In this document: piece after piece, positions 938 to 11,690 of the stretch
How the letters are laid out: every line of letters begins with the position of its first letter
Position numbering within the stretch: the stretch's first letter is position 1
NCBI GenBank assembly: GCA_001767455.1
Contig: MELC01000091.1
Location: forward strand, 1-64,000
Direction: 5' to 3'
Length of the DNA stretch: 64,000 bases
From: Acidobacteria bacterium RIFCSPLOWO2_12_FULL_66_21
GTDB lineage: Bacteria; Acidobacteriota; Vicinamibacteria; Vicinamibacterales; 2-12-FULL-66-21
Translations under genes and position numbers: made by a program
Notes under the pieces: generated by a model
Seen by the model: the letters and a program-made list of their open reading frames with translations, nothing else
Database searches by the model: none
What the model was told of the DNA's origin: nothing

Positions 938-1249
938 ATGTCAGTGACGACACCTGGAGAATGGGAAGCGGAACTCGGAAAGCAGATCCGCACCCTTCGG
1001 CTCAGACTGGATCTCGATCAGAAGCAACTGGCGGAACGGGCCGGAATCGCGCTCAACGCTGTTAAGAACCTCGAGAGCGGAAAGGGCGTCACGCTGCGCT
1101 CTCTGATCCAGGTGCTCCGCGTCCTGAACAGAACGGATTGGCTCGGAGCGCTCGCACCTGCCGTTTCGATCAGCCCAGTGCAAATGCTCAAGACAAAGGC
1201 GCCACGACAGCGGGCATCGCCAAGACGAGCGAAAAGCAAGAAGGCATAG
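938..1249 (+). CDS. hipB: HipB-like XRE-family antitoxin/repressor
   Basis: 103-residue DNA-binding protein with one helix-turn-helix of the Cro/CI (XRE) type at about residues 17-65 (IRTLRLRLDLDQKQLAERAG, then NLESGKG), followed by a Pro/Arg/Lys-rich tail. In HipBA systems HipB neutralises the HipA kinase and represses the operon. It lies 12 bp before hipA on the same strand. The ATG has no good Shine-Dalgarno sequence but sits 9 nt after a TATATT box, so the mRNA may be leaderless. Base composition is lower in GC than most of the window, in keeping with transfer along with the neighbouring integrase remnant. Family assignment is firm; toxin-antitoxin behaviour is inferred from the pairing. 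Confidence 0.82.
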   Translation: MSVTTPGEWEAELGKQIRTLRLRLDLDQKQLAERAGIALNAVKNLESGKGVTLRSLIQVLRVLNRTDWLGALAPAVSISPVQMLKTKAPRQRASPRRAKSKKA

Positions 1250-1261
1250 CGGAGCGCCATT

Positions 1262-2554
1262 GTGTACCGACCCGTTCATGTCGTCGAGGTTCTGATTTGG
1301 GGCAAGGCCGTCGGTGCAGTAGCGCTCGATCCGAAGCTTGGCTATTACGCTTTCGAATACTTGCCGGCCTTCCGTGAATCCGGTATCGACCTGGCGCCCA
1401 TCACGATGCCGATCGCGGCTGCTCCCGAGCCTTTTGCTTTTCCGGATCTGGCGGAACTCACGTATCGCCGGTTGCCGGGAATGCTCGCGGACGCGTTGCC
1501 TGACGATTTTGGAAACGCCCTGATCGATGCCTGGATGGCGCGCCAGGGCGTGAACAGGTCACAGATAACTCCGCTTGACCGTCTCGCGTACATGGCCCAG
1601 AGGGGAATCGGTGCGTTGGAGTTCAAGCCAGCGCGCGGTCCTGGACGTTCGAAATCGACGACGGCGATCAAGCTGTCGGCACTCGTTGAAAGTGCCAGAC
1701 GTGCTGTGCAAGGAGACATTGATACCGACGAACACGCCAAGGCCGCGCTCGCGCAAATCATTCAGGTCGGCACTTCCGCGGGAGGCGCCAGAGCGAAGGC
1801 GGTCATCTCGTGGAATCCGGACACTCACGAAATTCGTGCAGGCCAGTTCGATGTTGGGCCCGGATTCGAGCATTGGCTGATCAAGTTCGATGGCGTCGGA
1901 ACGGATGAACGTCTCGGTGTCAGCCGAGACTATGGACGCATCGAGTATGCGTACTACCTGATGGCGACGGCTGCGGGGATCGAGATGTCAGAGTCCCGCC
2001 TGTTGGAGGAAAACGATCGAGCCCACTTCATGACGAAACGGTTCGACCGCGACGGGAACAGGAAGCATCACCTCCAGACCCTCTGCGGCTTGGCACATCT
2101 CGACTATCGACAAAAGGCCACTCACGATGCCAGCCAGCTGTTCCTGACGATCGACCGCCTCGGAATCGGATACTCAGGCATGGAGCAAGCCTTCCGACGT
2201 ATCGCATTCAACGTCATGGCCGCCAATTGTGACGACCACACGAAGAACGTGTCATTTTTGCTTCGTGAGCGCGGCAGGTGGGAACTCGCTCCAGCCTACG
2301 ACGTCACTCACGCCTACAACCCGAAGGGAGAATGGACGTATCAGCACCTGATGTCTGTAAACGGCGAGTTCGCCAGCATCTCGCGGGACGATCTCATGGT
2401 CGTCGCCGATCGTTTCGGCGTCGGGACGGCGACGAAAGTCCTGACTGACGTCAGTGAGGCTGTTTCGTCCTGGCCAGACTTCGCAAAGAGGACGAAGGTG
2501 AGCCAGGCTGAAATCGCTCGCGTCAAGGAACATCACGTTCTTTTCTCGCGTTGA
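1262..2554 (+). CDS. hipA: HipA-family serine/threonine kinase toxin
   Basis: 430 residues, the normal length for HipA kinases, from a GTG start with GGAG upstream. HipA proteins phosphorylate a translation-related target (GltX in E. coli) and induce dormancy. Visible kinase features: a glycine-rich loop GTSAGGARAKA (about 170-180), ATP-site lysine K208 in WLIKFD, the catalytic loop NCDDHTKN with D324 in the place of E. coli D309, and the metal-binding aspartate D347 in LAPAYDV. All key residues are present, so the enzyme looks active. It follows hipB by 12 bp. The N-terminal subdomain (residues 1-120) also looks complete. The real substrate cannot be read from sequence. Confidence 0.85.
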   Translation: MYRPVHVVEVLIWGKAVGAVALDPKLGYYAFEYLPAFRESGIDLAPITMPIAAAPEPFAFPDLAELTYRRLPGMLADALPDDFGNALIDAWMARQGVNRSQITPLDRLAYMAQRGIGALEFKPARGPGRSKSTTAIKLSALVESARRAVQGDIDTDEHAKAALAQIIQVGTSAGGARAKAVISWNPDTHEIRAGQFDVGPGFEHWLIKFDGVGTDERLGVSRDYGRIEYAYYLMATAAGIEMSESRLLEENDRAHFMTKRFDRDGNRKHHLQTLCGLAHLDYRQKATHDASQLFLTIDRLGIGYSGMEQAFRRIAFNVMAANCDDHTKNVSFLLRERGRWELAPAYDVTHAYNPKGEWTYQHLMSVNGEFASISRDDLMVVADRFGVGTATKVLTDVSEAVSSWPDFAKRTKVSQAEIARVKEHHVLFSR

Positions 2555-5771: not shown

Positions 5772-6362
5772 CTACTTTCCGCCGGAGACCGCCGCTTCGA
5801 TTGCCCGGGCAAGATCGACCACGGGACCGTTGAACACCGTGGCCGTTGGCATCCGCTCTTCCCAGCGAGCGCCCTTCGGATACACCGCGGCGAGGTCCCA
5901 CAGAACGCCGGAGTGTACGCAGCACTCTTGCTCGGGCTGCGGCGACCGCGCGTCGGCGGCCATCTGTTTCGCGAGCACGTGATTGCGATCCCAGTACTGT
6001 TGCACGCGGCGATCGGAGGCTCGGCTCAGCACCGATGTTGTGGGGGCCATGAAGTCGGTTGGCAGGATAGGCTCCCAAACCATGAACACGCGCACGGCAG
6101 CGTTCGGCTGCTTCGCTAACACCGATTCGACTGCGGAAGACCCCCGCAGACAGTTTGGTCAAGTTGGCGAGAGCAGCACGATGATCCGTGTCTCGCTCGC
6201 GGCCCGGTTGAAATCCGCCTTGACGGTGGCGAGGGAGGCGGGATCAAGATACGCGAGCGGCAGTTGACCGGCTGGTGCATCGTGGGATGCGAAGCGCACA
6301 TAGCCGAACGCCGCAGCGATTGCCACGACCACGAGGATCAGGAGCAGCTTTCGTCGAGTCAT
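5772..6362 (-). CDS. Selenocysteine-containing thioredoxin-like protein (UPNC motif, TGA read as Sec)
   Basis: Read through the in-frame TGA at 6161-6159, one 196-residue protein results. Residues 5-21 form a signal/anchor helix (KLLLILVVVAIAAAFGY); then a thioredoxin-like strand ETRIIVLLSPT leads into residues 68-71, U-P-N-C, exactly where thioredoxin-fold proteins have CxxC. The frame continues with VFMVWEPILPTDF, a vicinal cysteine pair C147-C148, and FNGPVVDLARAIEA at the end. Immediately after the TGA is a SECIS-like hairpin (6149-6131). Ordinary annotation would give two broken genes, but there is no frameshift: both parts share one frame. The start ATG overlaps the stop of the MerT-like gene upstream (ATGA, 6359-6362). 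The protein probably handles thiol or metal redox chemistry outside the cytoplasmic membrane; the substrate is unknown. The selenium insertion genes are not in this window. Confidence 0.83.
6131..6158 (-). promoter_or_regulatory. Bacterial SECIS element
   Basis: Directly downstream of the TGA (6161-6159) the mRNA can fold as CUGCGG (6149-6144), loop GGGUCUU (6143-6137), CCGCAG (6136-6131): six perfect pairs. The loop contains GGUCU, the same bases that SelB recognises in the E. coli fdhF SECIS, and begins 16 nt after the UGA, within the spacing accepted for bacterial SECIS elements. Below a U-U mismatch a G-C and a U-G pair extend the stem. This supports decoding of UGA as selenocysteine. Confidence 0.8.
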
Positions 6363-6682
6363 GGCATCCAATCGGCGAGCAGGCCGGCGATCAGTTGCGG
6401 GAAGAGCACGACGAGCAGCACGAGCGTCGTGGACGCGGCGAGGATCACCACGGAGGCGATCCCGTGCCTCCGGCAGGCGCGGCGCGCCCGCGCGAACTGC
6501 ACGGCGCCGACCGCGAGCAGCACCACGGACGCTCCGAGGAACGCCCATCGGTAGGAACCCGCAACGATCGCGAGACTGGCCGAGGCGGTGCCCGCGGCGA
6601 ACGCGATCGGCAGGCAGCACGCCAGCGTGGCAAGCGCGCTCAGAGCCGCGGCAACCGGAGCGATTTTATCAGTGTGCTTCAT
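6359..6682 (-). CDS. MerT-like small membrane protein
   Basis: 107 residues from the ATG at 6682, with three predicted membrane helices. Helix 1 carries a vicinal cysteine pair (ATLACCLPIAF, C22-C23) as in the mercuric-ion transporter MerT and relatives; the second segment (YRWAFLGASVVLLAVGAVQFA) is followed by a loop with one further cysteine (RRACRR, C70) and a third helix. MerT passes Hg(II) from periplasmic thiols to the cytoplasm; related small proteins may move other soft metals. No merA, merP or merR is nearby. An alternative start at 6703 would add MPGDREE; neither start has a convincing Shine-Dalgarno. It is translationally coupled to the selenoprotein, so the two likely act together. 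Confidence 0.7.
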   Translation of the reverse strand: MKHTDKIAPVAAALSALATLACCLPIAFAAGTASASLAIVAGSYRWAFLGASVVLLAVGAVQFARARRACRRHGIASVVILAASTTLVLLVVLFPQLIAGLLADWMP

Positions 6683-6833
6683 CTCTTCGCGATCGCCGGG
6701 CATTCCGGAGCGGTAAGTCCCCGCCATTTTAGAACGCCAGGTGTCGGAATTCTGCGTCGAGTCGGCGATCAGCCGCCAGGCCGGACTTGAAAGTCGCGGG
6801 GCCGTAAGGGCCGTGTGACTTCGAGACGCATGG

Positions 6834-6839
6834 TAGATT
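6834..6839 (+). promoter_or_regulatory. -10 box for a probably leaderless DUF2277 mRNA
   Basis: TAGATT lies exactly 9 nt before the ATG at 6849 and no Shine-Dalgarno sequence is present. The spacing puts transcription start at or next to the ATG, as for hipB, the PilT gene and the tesA-like gene in this window. Confidence 0.45.
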
Positions 6840-6848
6840 TGCGGTGAC

Positions 6849-7082
6849 ATGTGCCGGAACATCAAGCAGCTCTTCAATTTCGATCCACCCGCCAGCGACG
6901 AAGAGATCCGCGCCTCGTCGCTCCAGTTCGTGCGGAAGCTGAGTGGGTTCAACAAGCCTTCGAAAGCGAACGAGGCGGCTTTCGATGGCGCCGTCGAGGA
7001 AGTCTCCGCCGCGGCCCGCAAGCTGTTGCGGTCCCTCGTGACGAACGCGCCCCCGCGCGATCGCTTAGTCGATAGTCGATAG
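6849..7082 (+). CDS. DUF2277 family protein
   Basis: 77 residues that match the small DUF2277 family nearly end to end: MCRNIKQLFNFDPPA, EEIRASSLQFVRKLSGFNKPS, and a C-terminal helix that usually ends near NAPPRDR. Members are short cytosolic proteins of unknown function, common in Actinobacteria and Acidobacteria. The final residues LVDSR are encoded by a tandem GATAGTC repeat that begins at 7066, so the repeat has extended the 3' end of the gene. No operon partner; the neighbours on both sides are on the minus strand. Confidence 0.88.
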   Translation: MCRNIKQLFNFDPPASDEEIRASSLQFVRKLSGFNKPSKANEAAFDGAVEEVSAAARKLLRSLVTNAPPRDRLVDSR

Positions 7083-7126
7083 TCGATAGTCGATAGTCAA
7101 AGTCAAAGTCGAAGTCGAAGTCGTCA
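7066..7126. repeat. Heptamer/hexamer tandem repeat at convergent gene ends
   Basis: Four copies of TAGTCGA are followed by AAAGTC, AAAGTC, GAAGTC and GAAGTC units. The array lies between two convergent genes and supplies the last codons of DUF2277 and reaches the stop codon (7124-7126) of the HTH-RDD gene. Slippage here would change the C-terminus of the former. Confidence 0.75.
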
Positions 7127-7717
7127 GTCAGCCGGAGCCCAGGCGTTGACCGCACGCAGCAGGATTACCCGCAGGCGGAGAGGGCATTCCGGCCGGCGGT
7201 CCGGGACGCCGCAGACGACTTGGCCCATCGTGCGGCCGTGCACTCCCGCCAGCAGGATGAAATACAGCACCCAGGTTGTCGCGCACAGCACGATGAGTGG
7301 CAGGGGAGTGTGCGTCAGGAGAGCGCCGGCGCCGATGCCGCACGTCATCGCGACGACCCGCACGATGACGGCGTTGAGAATGAAGAGCAGCAGCAGGTCG
7401 AGGCCGGCGGCGGCCGGTACGCGCGTGCGTGGCACCCGTTCCGCGCGTGCGGCAACGGCCGCCCGGGCGCGCGCGGCAGCGGGCAACGGGTCCTCTTCGG
7501 TGGGGAGCAGCGGCAGGATGGCCGCGAGCTCGGCCGTATCGAGTCCGACGGCATCCGCAAACGCGCGCACGTAAGAGCGCGCATAGATCCCAACGGGGAG
7601 ATCCGCAAACCTCCCCTCGTCGATCGCTTCGAGATGCCGGGGGCTCAGCCGCGTCGTATTCGCGATCTCAGCGAGACTGAGTCCACGCATTCTCCTGGCA
7701 ACGCCGAGCGGATTCAT
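7124..7717 (-). CDS. Helix-turn-helix / RDD-like membrane protein
   Basis: 197 residues from the ATG at 7717 (MNPLGVARRMRG); a second ATG at 7735 would add six. Residues ~5-65 form a RodZ-type XRE helix-turn-helix (LSLAEIANTTRLSPRHLEAI, GIYARSYVRAFADAVGLD). A Pro/Ala/Arg linker leads to a membrane part resembling the RDD fold: a first helix LDLLLLFILNAVIVRVV, more hydrophobic segments, and the RDD-like GRTMGQVVCGV near the C-terminus. Proteins that join a cytoplasmic HTH to membrane helices often act in cell-shape or envelope control, but this fusion is not one I can assign. Convergent with DUF2277. Confidence 0.6.
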   Translation of the reverse strand: MNPLGVARRMRGLSLAEIANTTRLSPRHLEAIDEGRFADLPVGIYARSYVRAFADAVGLDTAELAAILPLLPTEEDPLPAAARARAAVAARAERVPRTRVPAAAGLDLLLLFILNAVIVRVVAMTCGIGAGALLTHTPLPLIVLCATTWVLYFILLAGVHGRTMGQVVCGVPDRRPECPLRLRVILLRAVNAWAPAD

Positions 7718-7781
7718 CACATACCCGATCCGCATATCGGGACGGCGCGCGATCGGATTTAACTCAGCGGCATCGACCTCG

Positions 7782-8522: not shown

Positions 8523-8725
8523 CAGAAGCCTCCAGCGGGAACACCAATACCGATCGGCACGTGCATCCACGTCCCGTACCAACCTTATCGCGAGCCGGTC
8601 GGGGGGAATTCCCATGCAAAATCGAGCTGCCCACCAACGAAGGCGGGTCGTGTCGCCGGTAACCCGGCACCCTTGCTCGCGCAACGCGCAAACAATGAGA
8701 GACTTGGATGGGAGGAAGGGGGGCC

Positions 8726-10147
8726 ATGTTCCTGCGACAAATCGTTGACGAGAAGCTTGCGCAGTACGCCTACCTGATTGGCTGTCAACGGACCGGCCAG
8801 GCGCTCATCATCGATCCCGAGCGGGACATCGATCGCTACGTGGCCGCGGCGGACGCCGCCGGTTTGCGCATCGTGGCGGTCACCGAAACCCACATCCATG
8901 CGGACTTCCTGTCAGGCGCGCGGGAGTTCGCGGAGCGGTACGGCACGAGGGTGTATCTCTCGGACGAGGGTGATGCCGACTGGAAGTACGAATGGGCCGC
9001 CCTCAGCAAGTACGACTGCGTGTTGCTCCACGACGGCGACACCTTCCGGATCGGGAACATCGACGTGAAGGCGGTGCACACGCCCGGCCACACACCGGAG
9101 CACCTCGTCTTCCTCATCACCGACACGGGCGCCGATGCGACCGAACCGATGGGGATGGCCAGCGGCGACTTTGTCTTCGTCGGCGATCTCGGCCGGCCGG
9201 ACCTGCTCGAAAGCGCGGCGGGGCTGCACGGGGCCATGCGGCCGTCCGCCGAGCGGCTGTACGGCTCCGTCCAGCGGTTCCTGCATTTGCCGGATTTCCT
9301 GCAAGTCTGGCCCGGACACGGCGCCGGTTCGGCGTGCGGCAAGGCGCTGGGGGCGGTACCCGAGACGACCGTCGGGTACGAGAAACGATTCAGCGCGGCG
9401 ATCAAGGCCGCCCGCGGCGGTGAAGAGGCGTTCGTCGACTACATCCTCAAAGATCAACCGGAGCCGCCGCTGTACTTCGCGCGGATGAAGCGCGACAACC
9501 GCAAGGGCCCGCCGATCCTCGGCGACCTGCCGCGTCCGCGCCGCATGGATCCCCGCGCCCTCGTGACCGCGTTGAATGGCAGGGGAATCGTGGTGGACAC
9601 GCGGCTCGATCGTGCGGGCTTCATGTCGCGTCACCTGCGCGGTTCGTTGTATGCGCGGTTCGACAGGGCGTTCAACACCGCCGTGGGATCGCTCCTCACC
9701 GACGAATCGACGCCGCTCTACCTGGTGATCGACGACGACCACGTCGAGGCCGCGGTGCGTGACCTGGTGAGGATCGGGTACGACCGGATCCCCGGCTACG
9801 CGGATCCCGGGGAGTTCGAGGCCTACCTCGCACAGGACGGGGGCAGCCGCACCGAGCAGATCGAGTTCGCGGACGTCGAACAGCTGCGGGCCCGCCCGGA
9901 CCAGCAGGTGCTCGACGTGAGGAACGCGTCCGAGTTCCAGGCGGGCCACGTGCCCGGCGCGCTGAATATCGCATACACTCGGCTCGCCGACCGCCTGGCC
10001 GAAGTGCCGCGCGACAAGGCGCTGCTCGTGTACTGCCTGTCGGGCGCGCGAGCGGCGGTCGCCTCCGCGTTCCTCGAAGCGAACGGATGGAGCGTCAAGT
10101 ACGTCGGCGACAACTTCGGCAATTACGAGCGCATCGCGGCGGGATGA
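8726..10147 (+). CDS. MBL-fold / rhodanese fusion (persulfide or sulfur-transfer enzyme)
   Basis: 473 residues from the ATG at 8726, which has GGAGGAAGGGGGG just upstream; the ATG at 8708 would place the ribosome site inside the gene. Residues 1-240 are a metallo-beta-lactamase fold of the ETHE1/persulfide-dioxygenase group: ETHIHADFLSG, HTPGHTPEH and GDFVFVGDLGRPDL supply the metal ligands. Two rhodanese domains follow: the first (about 285-365) lacks a catalytic cysteine, the second (about 380-470) has VLDVRNASEFQAGHVPGA and the active-site loop CLSGARA. Such fusions oxidise or transfer persulfide sulfur in the cytoplasm. The exact reaction, dioxygenase or sulfurtransferase, cannot be fixed from sequence. 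Confidence 0.85.
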   Translation: MFLRQIVDEKLAQYAYLIGCQRTGQALIIDPERDIDRYVAAADAAGLRIVAVTETHIHADFLSGAREFAERYGTRVYLSDEGDADWKYEWAALSKYDCVLLHDGDTFRIGNIDVKAVHTPGHTPEHLVFLITDTGADATEPMGMASGDFVFVGDLGRPDLLESAAGLHGAMRPSAERLYGSVQRFLHLPDFLQVWPGHGAGSACGKALGAVPETTVGYEKRFSAAIKAARGGEEAFVDYILKDQPEPPLYFARMKRDNRKGPPILGDLPRPRRMDPRALVTALNGRGIVVDTRLDRAGFMSRHLRGSLYARFDRAFNTAVGSLLTDESTPLYLVIDDDHVEAAVRDLVRIGYDRIPGYADPGEFEAYLAQDGGSRTEQIEFADVEQLRARPDQQVLDVRNASEFQAGHVPGALNIAYTRLADRLAEVPRDKALLVYCLSGARAAVASAFLEANGWSVKYVGDNFGNYERIAAG

Positions 10148-10292: not shown

Positions 10293-11690
10293 ATGCATCA
10301 CAAGACGATAATCGAACCCTTTCGCATCAAGTCGGTCGAGCCCATCAAGTTCACCACGCGCGCCGATCGGTCCGCGGCGCTCGTCGACGCCGGCTACAAC
10401 GTGTTCCGCCTGCACGCCGACGATGTGCTCATCGATTTGTTGACCGACTCGGGCACGGGCGCCATGTCCTCGCAGCAGTGGGGCGCGCTGATGCAGGGAG
10501 ATGAAAGCTACGCCGGCAGCCGCTCCTTCTACCGTTTCCGCGACGTGGTCCAGGACCTCACCGGGTTCCAGCACATCATCCCGACGCACCAGGGGCGGGC
10601 GGCCGAACGCATCCTCTTTCACACGCAGGTGCGGTCCGGCCATGTCGTGCCGAACAACAACCATTTCGACACCACGCGCGCGAACATCGAGGTCGAAGGG
10701 GCGGAGGCGCGCGACCTGGTCATCGCCGAAGGACGCGTGCCGTCCGCGCTGCACCCCTTCAAGGGGAACATCGATCTCGACGCGCTGGAAGCGCTGCTCG
10801 TCGAGGACAAGCGCCAGGGAGGGCGCCTCGTCCCGCTCGTGATGGTGACCATCACGAACAACTCCGGCGGCGGGCAGCCGGTCTCGCTCGAGAACCTGCG
10901 CGGCGTGCGCCGCCTGTGCGACACATACAGCAAGCCGTTCTTCCTCGACGCGTGCCGATTCGCGGAGAACGCGTATTTCATCAAGCTGCGCGAAAAAGGG
11001 CAGGGCGACCGCACACCCGCCGACATCGCCCGCGAGGTGTTCCGCCTGGCGGACGGCTGCACGATGTCCGCCAAGAAGGACGGGCTGGCCAACATCGGCG
11101 GGTTCCTGGCGATGAACGACTCGCAGTGGGCGGACACGGCGCGGAACCTGTTGATCCTGACGGAGGGGTTTCCGACCTACGGCGGCCTGGCCGGCTACGA
11201 TCTCGAAGCCATCGCCCGCGGGCTCGAGGAAGTCGTCGAGGAGCCCTATCTCAAGTACCGCATCCGCTCGACGGCCTACCTGGCGGACAAGCTCACGTCG
11301 GGCGGCGTGCCAATCATCCAGCCCGCCGGAGGCCACGCGATCTATATCGACGCCCGTGGCATGCTGCCGCACATTCCGCCGGTCCAGTATCCGGGCATCG
11401 CGCTCGCCAACGCGTTGTACGTCGAGGGCGGCGTGCGCGGCGTCGAGATCGGCACGGTGATGTTCGGGCTGCGAGCCGACGGTACGGAAGTCCCGCCGGC
11501 CATGGATCTCGTGCGCCTGGCGATCCCGCGGCGCGTGTACACGCAATCGCACATCGATTACGTTGCCGAGGTGGTGCTCGCGGTGGCCGCCGCGAGCGTC
11601 TCGCTGCGCGGGTATCGCATCGTCTCGGCTCCAGCCGTCCTGCGGCACTTCACGGCACGGTTCGAGCCGCTACCAGAAGAAGGGAAGTAG
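10293..11690 (+). CDS. tnaA: Tryptophanase (tryptophan indole-lyase)
   Basis: 465 residues, the normal size for PLP-dependent beta-eliminating lyases. Motifs: LLTDSGTGAMS, PTHQGRAAER, DACRFAENAYFIK and SAKKDG with PLP lysine K262. Tyrosine phenol-lyase is a close relative; substrate-site residues favour tryptophanase: FDTT at 125-128 (Asp as in TnaA), VEIG rather than the lyase's MERG, and LRHFTA near the C-terminus with the tryptophanase histidine (H452). It cleaves tryptophan to indole, pyruvate and ammonia in the cytoplasm. It stands alone without a TnaB transporter or a visible TnaC-type leader; the repeat array just upstream occupies the leader region. GGAAGAC serves as a weak ribosome site. 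Confidence 0.88.
   Translation: MHHKTIIEPFRIKSVEPIKFTTRADRSAALVDAGYNVFRLHADDVLIDLLTDSGTGAMSSQQWGALMQGDESYAGSRSFYRFRDVVQDLTGFQHIIPTHQGRAAERILFHTQVRSGHVVPNNNHFDTTRANIEVEGAEARDLVIAEGRVPSALHPFKGNIDLDALEALLVEDKRQGGRLVPLVMVTITNNSGGGQPVSLENLRGVRRLCDTYSKPFFLDACRFAENAYFIKLREKGQGDRTPADIAREVFRLADGCTMSAKKDGLANIGGFLAMNDSQWADTARNLLILTEGFPTYGGLAGYDLEAIARGLEEVVEEPYLKYRIRSTAYLADKLTSGGVPIIQPAGGHAIYIDARGMLPHIPPVQYPGIALANALYVEGGVRGVEIGTVMFGLRADGTEVPPAMDLVRLAIPRRVYTQSHIDYVAEVVLAVAAASVSLRGYRIVSAPAVLRHFTARFEPLPEEGK

Follow-up and report, generated by a model that had tools for sequence, protein, structure and literature searches.

A thioredoxin-fold selenoprotein family with a likely link to mercury handling

Introduction

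On the minus strand of the window, by which is meant the whole 64,000-nucleotide stretch of DNA analysed here (contig MELC01000091.1 of Acidobacteria bacterium RIFCSPLOWO2_12_FULL_66_21, a soil bacterium), lies a gene that is near certain to encode a selenoprotein. The reading of it that we favour, and to which we would assign a probability of roughly 0.6, is that its product is a membrane-anchored thioredoxin-fold selenoprotein that works together with a MerT-like protein in the capture or hand-off of mercury; judged from comparisons among its relatives, the family to which it belongs is likely to be tied to mercury handling. What appears to be new, going by the Pfam and NCBIfam models and the literature passages searched, is the family itself, a group of thioredoxin-fold selenoproteins linked in this way to MerT, MerB and MerA and including a fusion of a selenocysteine-containing thioredoxin with mercuric reductase. 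Since ordinary gene finders split the Sec forms at the UGA, a mercury partner of this kind is easily overlooked. If the favoured reading is true, it would be a case of selenium being used to handle mercury, and it makes testable the idea that detoxification in bacteria draws on the strength of the selenium-mercury bond. The features concerned are collected in Table 1.

Table 1 Features of the selenoprotein locus, with positions in the window.
Feature	Position	Strand	Remarks
Gene for the selenoprotein (196 aa, residue 68 being Sec)	5772..6362	-	ATG 6362-6360, stop TAG 5774-5772
UGA almost certainly read as selenocysteine (U68)	6159..6161	-	in-frame; family alignment
U68-P-N-C71 motif	6150..6161	-	start of helix 69-84, after strand 58-64, in the predicted fold
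bSECIS hairpin, stem CUGCGG/CCGCAG	6131..6149	-	MFE fold has its apical GGUCU loop at 6142-6138, spaced 16 nt from the UGA
N-terminal hydrophobic helix, residues 3-25, probable membrane anchor	6288..6356	-	sequence and predicted model
Vicinal Cys147-Cys148	5919..5924	-	closest relatives only
MerT-like small hydrophobic protein, 107 aa, Cys-Cys near N-terminus	6359..6682	-	ORF, NCBIfam, profiles
ATGA overlap, MerT-like stop TGA / selenoprotein ATG	6359..6362	-	
Vicinal Cys22-Cys23 of the MerT-like protein	6614..6619	-	

The reading frame and its family

A preliminary description of this DNA, made from the letters and their open reading frames, had noted two open stretches sharing one frame and separated by a single TGA, and translation bears this out: the frame 5772-6362 yields 196 residues, and its only TGA, at 6161-6159, falls at residue 68 in the context IIVLLSPT-U-P-N-C. 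Under the standard code the list of open reading frames splits it into 5772-6122 and 6159-6620, just the pair of fragments that automatic annotation had been expected to give. This apparent stop almost certainly codes for selenocysteine, and insertion of Sec at U68 in the cell is what sequence comparison would lead one to expect. Homologues with Cys at residue 68 and others with TGA there, which the same description had proposed to look for, both exist: when hits below 60 bits and identical sequences are dropped, and one locus with a U-P-K-U motif (L141) is set aside, the codon is TGA in 51 distinct places (the window counted) and Cys in nine. Because the family hits of at least 60 bits have Sec (TGA) or Cys at this same codon, the TGA is not a matter of chance.

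Conservation beyond the TGA, a further point that had been put forward for checking, is also found. Compared with its relative L040 the window protein has 77 of 122 residues identical after the UGA and 35 of 65 before it, the corresponding figures being 72/126 and 29/64 for L041 and 72/126 and 24/58 for L042. Third codon positions change most in all three comparisons (for L040, 35, 24 and 72 substitutions after the TGA at codon positions 1, 2 and 3), and it is from this pattern, taken together with the conserved residues, that the downstream part is concluded to be translated in the same frame.

The genome of the window has one copy of the family, matches to which were found in 19 of 198 relative genomes and in 47 of 396 genomes of the phylum. 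Of these 47, 37 have at least one TGA form and 10 have none; seven of the 10 read as Cys, a count that excludes G239, G325 and G459, in which the match has no internal stop. The members come from Acidobacteria MAGs, including genomes of the window's own family, and from Chloroflexi (in the phylum of the Chloroflexi genome G544, eight of 301 sampled genomes have matches, G544 included). An alignment, here called A1, was made from 21 of the 24 rows given by the relative-genome search, leaving out L035 and L039, which represent a frameshifted family copy in genome G004; it has 14 invariant columns, among them F51, R59, P66, T67, U/C68, C71, D117, R119, W124, D125, W155, D156 and W167. A quick tree of 61 rows requires eight changes between Sec and Cys, at least four of them by well supported branches, and sequence comparison thus suggests that the two may have been swapped repeatedly during the evolution of the family. 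Two loci, L141:4120-4533 (genome G417) and L169:33-455 (G297), carry U-P-K-U with TGA at both active-site positions; these members of one genus likely have a double-Sec motif.

As to the searches themselves, a peptide-pattern search of the genome contigs with the window protein alone gave no relative, and one with a subset alignment gave 13 loci, several of them known already. One candidate from the search of the relative genomes (L034, E 1.8e-4) was dropped when the family profile did not confirm it.

The vicinal cysteines 147 and 148, for which a redox relay had been suggested, are indeed present, but a conserved relay through them is rejected as a family feature: besides the window protein, only L040, L041, L042 and the downstream piece of L043 have the pair, and the other 17 rows of A1 lack it.

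The hairpin after the UGA

According to the published bSECIS rules (PMC13188914), the loop should comprise 3-9 nt with G in the first two loop positions, the upper stem 4-16 bp and the spacing 16-37 nt, with an MFE of -7.5 or below. The window hairpin, with a 5-nt loop, a 7-bp stem beginning nine bases after the UGA, a spacing of 16 and an energy of -12.5 kcal/mol, lies within these rules, and so do the hairpins of 40 of the 51 TGA genes, whereas draws of synonymous codons would lead one to expect 14.9; the same rules pick out two of the nine Cys genes, where 1.9 would be expected.

Covariation was considered in two groups of 28 and 23 sequences, defined by protein and not by pairing. In the window-type group (n=28) each of the six stem pairs has changed on both sides somewhere, giving 22 both-side cells against 4.7 +/- 1.6 after shuffling (0/500), a figure that also exceeds those for slid registers; compensatory covariation is thus strong in this subgroup, in which pair 13-31 is nonetheless unformed in 13 of the 28 sequences. 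The second hairpin class (A5, n=23), many of whose nucleotides are invariant, gave no covariation in the register tested, and it was judged by the rule test instead. Folding energy alone is not informative: it is unremarkable for the window hairpin (z -0.35), group means lie near -0.5 relative to synonymous codons, and the TGA forms fold less well than two of the Cys forms. Rfam at its gathering thresholds gave no hit in the window.

Selenocysteine machinery

The preliminary description had also proposed looking for selA, selB, selC and selD in the genome, and each was found. The tRNA-Sec gene is on contig C36 (anticodon TCA, by ARAGORN), there being ten weaker hits to the tRNA-Sec model besides; selB (C91:69103-71001, 347.8 bits) is on the window's own contig, about 5 kb beyond the end of the window; and selA and selD match at 534.2 and 359.6 bits respectively, selD itself carrying an in-frame TGA. 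One of the weaker tRNA-Sec model hits, L003, which is over the cut-off, proved to be a tRNA-Ser.

Across the 396 genomes of the phylum, 256 have a selB match at E <= 1e-60, of which 254 pass the cut-off (the remaining two possibly including G410, at E 1.9e-61). The 256 include 36 of the 37 TGA-bearing genomes as against 220 of the 359 others, with p = 9e-7, a value that treats genomes as independent, which they are not. Since nine of the 10 genomes without a TGA form have selB as well, the association is not specific to TGA forms. Three drafts carrying TGA forms (G431, G543 and G545) gave no selB match that reached the cut-off, nor did an ARAGORN scan of six candidate loci in them yield a tRNA-Sec; the draft of G431 is 72% complete, while G543 and G545 are Chloroflexi drafts from outside the 396-genome sample. 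In G543, a Kouleothrix draft and the source of locus L117, there is a TGA form alongside two candidate loci that lack a tRNA-Sec, for which incomplete assembly, contamination or another decoding are possible explanations.

Predicted fold

An AlphaFold2 model calculated with A1 as the alignment has a mean pLDDT of 86.6, with a helix at residues 3-25, a strand at 58-64 and a helix at 69-84 that starts from the motif. Its best structural matches are thioredoxin-fold proteins, including ResA, DsbF, DsbE and the C-terminal domain of DipZ, with Z about 11 (for ResA 2f9s, Z 11.5 and rmsd 2.9 over 121 aligned residues), and identities in the structural alignments listed are 4-14%. The window protein is accordingly predicted to have a thioredoxin fold with the motif at the start of the first active-site helix, which agrees with the preliminary description, where the TGA was put at the first position of U-P-N-C and in the place of the CxxC of thioredoxin-fold proteins. 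Its proposal that the protein is membrane-anchored or secreted likewise agrees with the model, whose N-terminal hydrophobic helix is a probable anchor.

Domain models are far less forthcoming. The window protein matches nothing in Pfam at E <= 1, the TlpA, ResA and thioredoxin families included, and nothing in NCBIfam at E <= 10, and an HMA or MerP domain is recognised in it by neither collection. Thioredoxin-type Pfam models match single members of A1 only, at 0.19-0.26, and the best NCBIfam match among the 21 members is that of one member to TIGR02187 (0.0012). The model for SaoT (NF040730) matches neither the window protein (E <= 10) nor the 21 members (E <= 1).

The MerT-like partner

The protein encoded directly upstream finds its best NCBIfam match in MerT (NF033560; 24.9 of 130 bits, E 1.9e-5), far below the curated cut-off, and is linked by profiles to proteins with stronger MerT matches; by these comparisons it is a relative of MerT, not a certified member. 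Neither this gene nor a tie to mercury figures in the preliminary description. The ATGA overlap between the two genes probably indicates translational coupling, and the promoter of the operon should lie within 6683-6848, between the MerT-like gene and a short DUF2277 gene (PF10041, 3.7e-34) that is divergent from it at 6849-7082 (+).

A profile built from three MerT-like sequences (those of the window, L041 and L043) finds a gene of the same kind directly upstream in nine further distinct loci (L040, L042, L045, L048, L059, L092, L100, L103 and L104) and farther off in L105. With an enlarged profile a hit lies directly upstream on the same strand in 14 of 69 family loci, where directly upstream means a gap of up to 144 nt, one of the 14 is a fusion, and 10 of the 14, together with L098 and L105, helped to build the profile; nearby hits occur in L098, L105 and L099. 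Within the window's own clade the gene is directly upstream in six of nine rows. In 150 kb of other DNA the MerT-like profile hits only two stretches surrounding merA (L124 and L125), and it has no hit in the corresponding stretch from the window's own genome (L123).

The window locus does not have MerR and MerA in the same cluster, the combination taken to define a mer operon, and a scan using regular expressions and a hydrophobicity rule found no MerR, MerA, MerB or CopZ-like signature within 5 kb. The merA of this genome, which includes an HMA domain, is on contig C44 (603.7 bits).

Other genes in the window

Elsewhere in the window, an HTH protein followed by a HipA-like protein (PF07804) at 938-2554 (+) forms a probable HipBA toxin-antitoxin pair, and at 7124-7735 (-) an HTH_25 domain is joined to an RDD-family membrane domain, a pairing that seemed unusual. 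A metallo-beta-lactamase/rhodanese fusion at 8708-10147 (+), which we take to be persulfide-dioxygenase-like, is followed at 10293-11690 (+) by a beta-eliminating lyase (PF01212), presumably tryptophanase-like; the two are possibly a sulfur metabolism cluster.

Mercury genes beside and within family members

The most direct links to mercury are fusions. In L096 a Cys form is fused to MerT (Pfam, at its cut-off), and next come a protein with a weak likeness to MerP and then MerA, which passes its cut-off with 502.6 bits; in L098 a Cys form fused to a MerP-like HMA domain stands between MerT and CopZ-like genes; and in L120 (428-2452) a Sec form without the hydrophobic anchor continues in frame into a complete MerA (525.4 bits). 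The last of these, from a Chloroflexi MAG, ends in a Cys-Cys tail.

Neighbouring genes extend the list. In L117, from Kouleothrix aurantiaca, merA and merB come first, then the Sec form, a MerR-family gene and another merB, which looks split between two frames; L099 has a MerB gene (195.6 bits, narrowly above the cut-off) some 1 kb past its Cys form; MerA and a MerE-like protein (under the cut-off) precede the Sec form of L163; MerA is found 1.4 kb from the Cys form of L167, on the other strand; and a neighbour in L107 is matched by Pfam MerC. Several members are accompanied by CopZ-like proteins (over the NCBIfam cut-off in L048 and L098) and by MerR-type regulators (confirmed by Pfam as of the MerR family in L043, L096 and L117). 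The best NCBIfam models for the regulators are those for MerR (L096), Zn(II) (L043) and Cd/Pb (L117 and L162), all under cut-off, and on these matches the regulators do not single out mercury. Membrane neighbours of another kind are a DsbD-type protein in L165, from Chloroflexota (DsbD_TM, PF02683, 1e-15), and multi-helix proteins adjoining the Sec forms of L162 and L163, which look CcdA-like by eye, a label that no Pfam or NCBIfam model supports.

A further small open frame with an in-frame TGA (...PPAT-U-RVYPGGVP...) was seen at L043:7087-7503 (-), downstream of a frameshifted family copy. It has no Pfam match and a weak one to NCBIfam NF049942 (DF family of (seleno)proteins; E 0.018, under the cut-off), and from its sequence is possibly another selenoprotein.

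As labelled for the tree, 41 of the 61 family rows, about two thirds, have no mer gene in the DNA analysed, or 40 after the L120 fusion, some of the contigs being short. The 20 mer-linked labels, which are the author's reading of the profile and context results before the L120 fusion, need 11 changes on the quick tree, and mer-linked members are therefore scattered over it; the other counts given here are based on profiles or on named NCBIfam or Pfam matches. MerA is present in 6 of the 47 family genomes and in 15 of the 349 others (p = 0.027), a weak association at genome level.

Interpretation

The fusions and neighbours are what place the protein on the mercury path between the envelope and MerA. 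It would not simply replace MerP, since L098 and L105 also hold an HMA/MerP domain. In the scheme that we favour, UGA 6161-6159 would be decoded as Sec by the cell's own SelA, SelB, tRNA-Sec and SelD with the aid of the downstream hairpin, and the selenoprotein would be made together with the MerT-like Cys-Cys membrane protein; outside the membrane the U68/C71 pair would take up Hg(II), or an organomercury ion, and deliver it to the two adjacent cysteines of this MerT-like partner, after which the mercury would enter and be reduced by the MerA encoded elsewhere in the genome. We infer the mechanism in respect of membrane orientation, metal specificity and direction of transfer. The Se-Hg bond is strong, as is well established in chemistry. 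A more specific version is offered tentatively, at somewhat worse than even odds: that it is a selenolate-thiol pair in a thioredoxin fold, and not an HMA thiol pair, which takes up Hg(II) or organomercury for delivery to MerT or to a fused MerA, in a family marked by repeated swaps of Sec and Cys and by joins to MerT, MerA and a MerP-like domain. The mercury story is in any case incomplete, because there are members without a mer neighbour and because the regulators do not single out mercury.

The main rival is a reductase that keeps cysteine pairs working: a selenoprotein thiol-disulfide or selenol reductase that would maintain or repair those of MerT, MerP and other envelope proteins under metal stress, with a DsbD-like or MerT-like membrane partner as its electron source, and would itself carry no mercury. 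The UxxC motif and a predicted fold closest to ResA, DsbF, DsbE and DipZ domains are what one would expect of such an enzyme, and the DsbD_TM neighbour in L165, the multi-helix proteins next to the L162 and L163 Sec forms, the coexistence with HMA domains and the many members outside mer contexts would all suit it too; however, direct fusion to MerA, MerT and an HMA domain, together with the pairing with MerT-like proteins in Acidobacteriota, points to metal handling, and we regard this explanation as unlikely. Appreciably less probable still is that the family serves some other process (Zn, Cd, Cu, peroxide or sulfur chemistry) and that the mer neighbourhoods reflect recruitment in particular lineages only, instead of what the protein does in the window: mer neighbours are absent from most family loci, MerA and the family co-occur weakly, and the nearby regulators have their best matches in models for Zn, Cd/Pb or Hg without reaching cut-off, but the scatter of mer-linked members over the tree and the MerT-like gene upstream in most of the window's clade tell against it. 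That the gene is not a selenoprotein at all, either because the stop is real, in a pseudogene or through a sequencing error, or because the UGA is read as another residue, is very improbable, for although three TGA-bearing drafts lack a detectable selB and tRNA-Sec and the folding energy of the window hairpin is unremarkable, the TGA recurs at one codon that is otherwise Cys, the hairpin agrees with the SECIS rules and covaries, and the window's genome has the full Sec machinery.

Comparison with known systems

Sec-thioredoxins, SaoT, metal-linked selenoproteins and mer operons are all known already. A search of the Pfam and NCBIfam models and of literature passages (PMC13188914, PMC9312934, PMC12013277) turned up neither the present family nor its joins to MerT, a MerP-like domain and MerA.

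The heavy-metal selenoprotein families NF045683, NF045877 and NF041115 (a Sec-containing MerT/CopZ fusion, a CopZ-like and a UxxU family) resemble the present one in being just that, and relatives of theirs are neighbours of its members, but they are other protein families and none of them matches the window protein. The likeness to MerP and to the HMA N-terminal domain of MerA lies in the position beside MerT, in the fusion to MerA and in the proposed role in handing off mercury; the fold, however, is a different one, and in L098 and L105 both an HMA/MerP domain and the family protein are present.

SaoT, a thioredoxin-like selenoprotein of the Sec-assisted organometallic (SAO) system, shares with the family (NCBIfam NF040730; PMC13188914) a thioredoxin-like character, UxxC and a place in a selenoprotein operon for organometal chemistry, whereas the partners of the window family are MerT, MerA and MerB. 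The TlpA/ResA/DsbE envelope proteins, finally, are alike in predicted fold and in the N-terminal hydrophobic helix, but the window family differs from them in having Sec at the first position, no Pfam match and an identity of 4-14%, and in conserved residues of its own, namely F51, R59, D117, R119, W124-D125, W155-D156 and W167.
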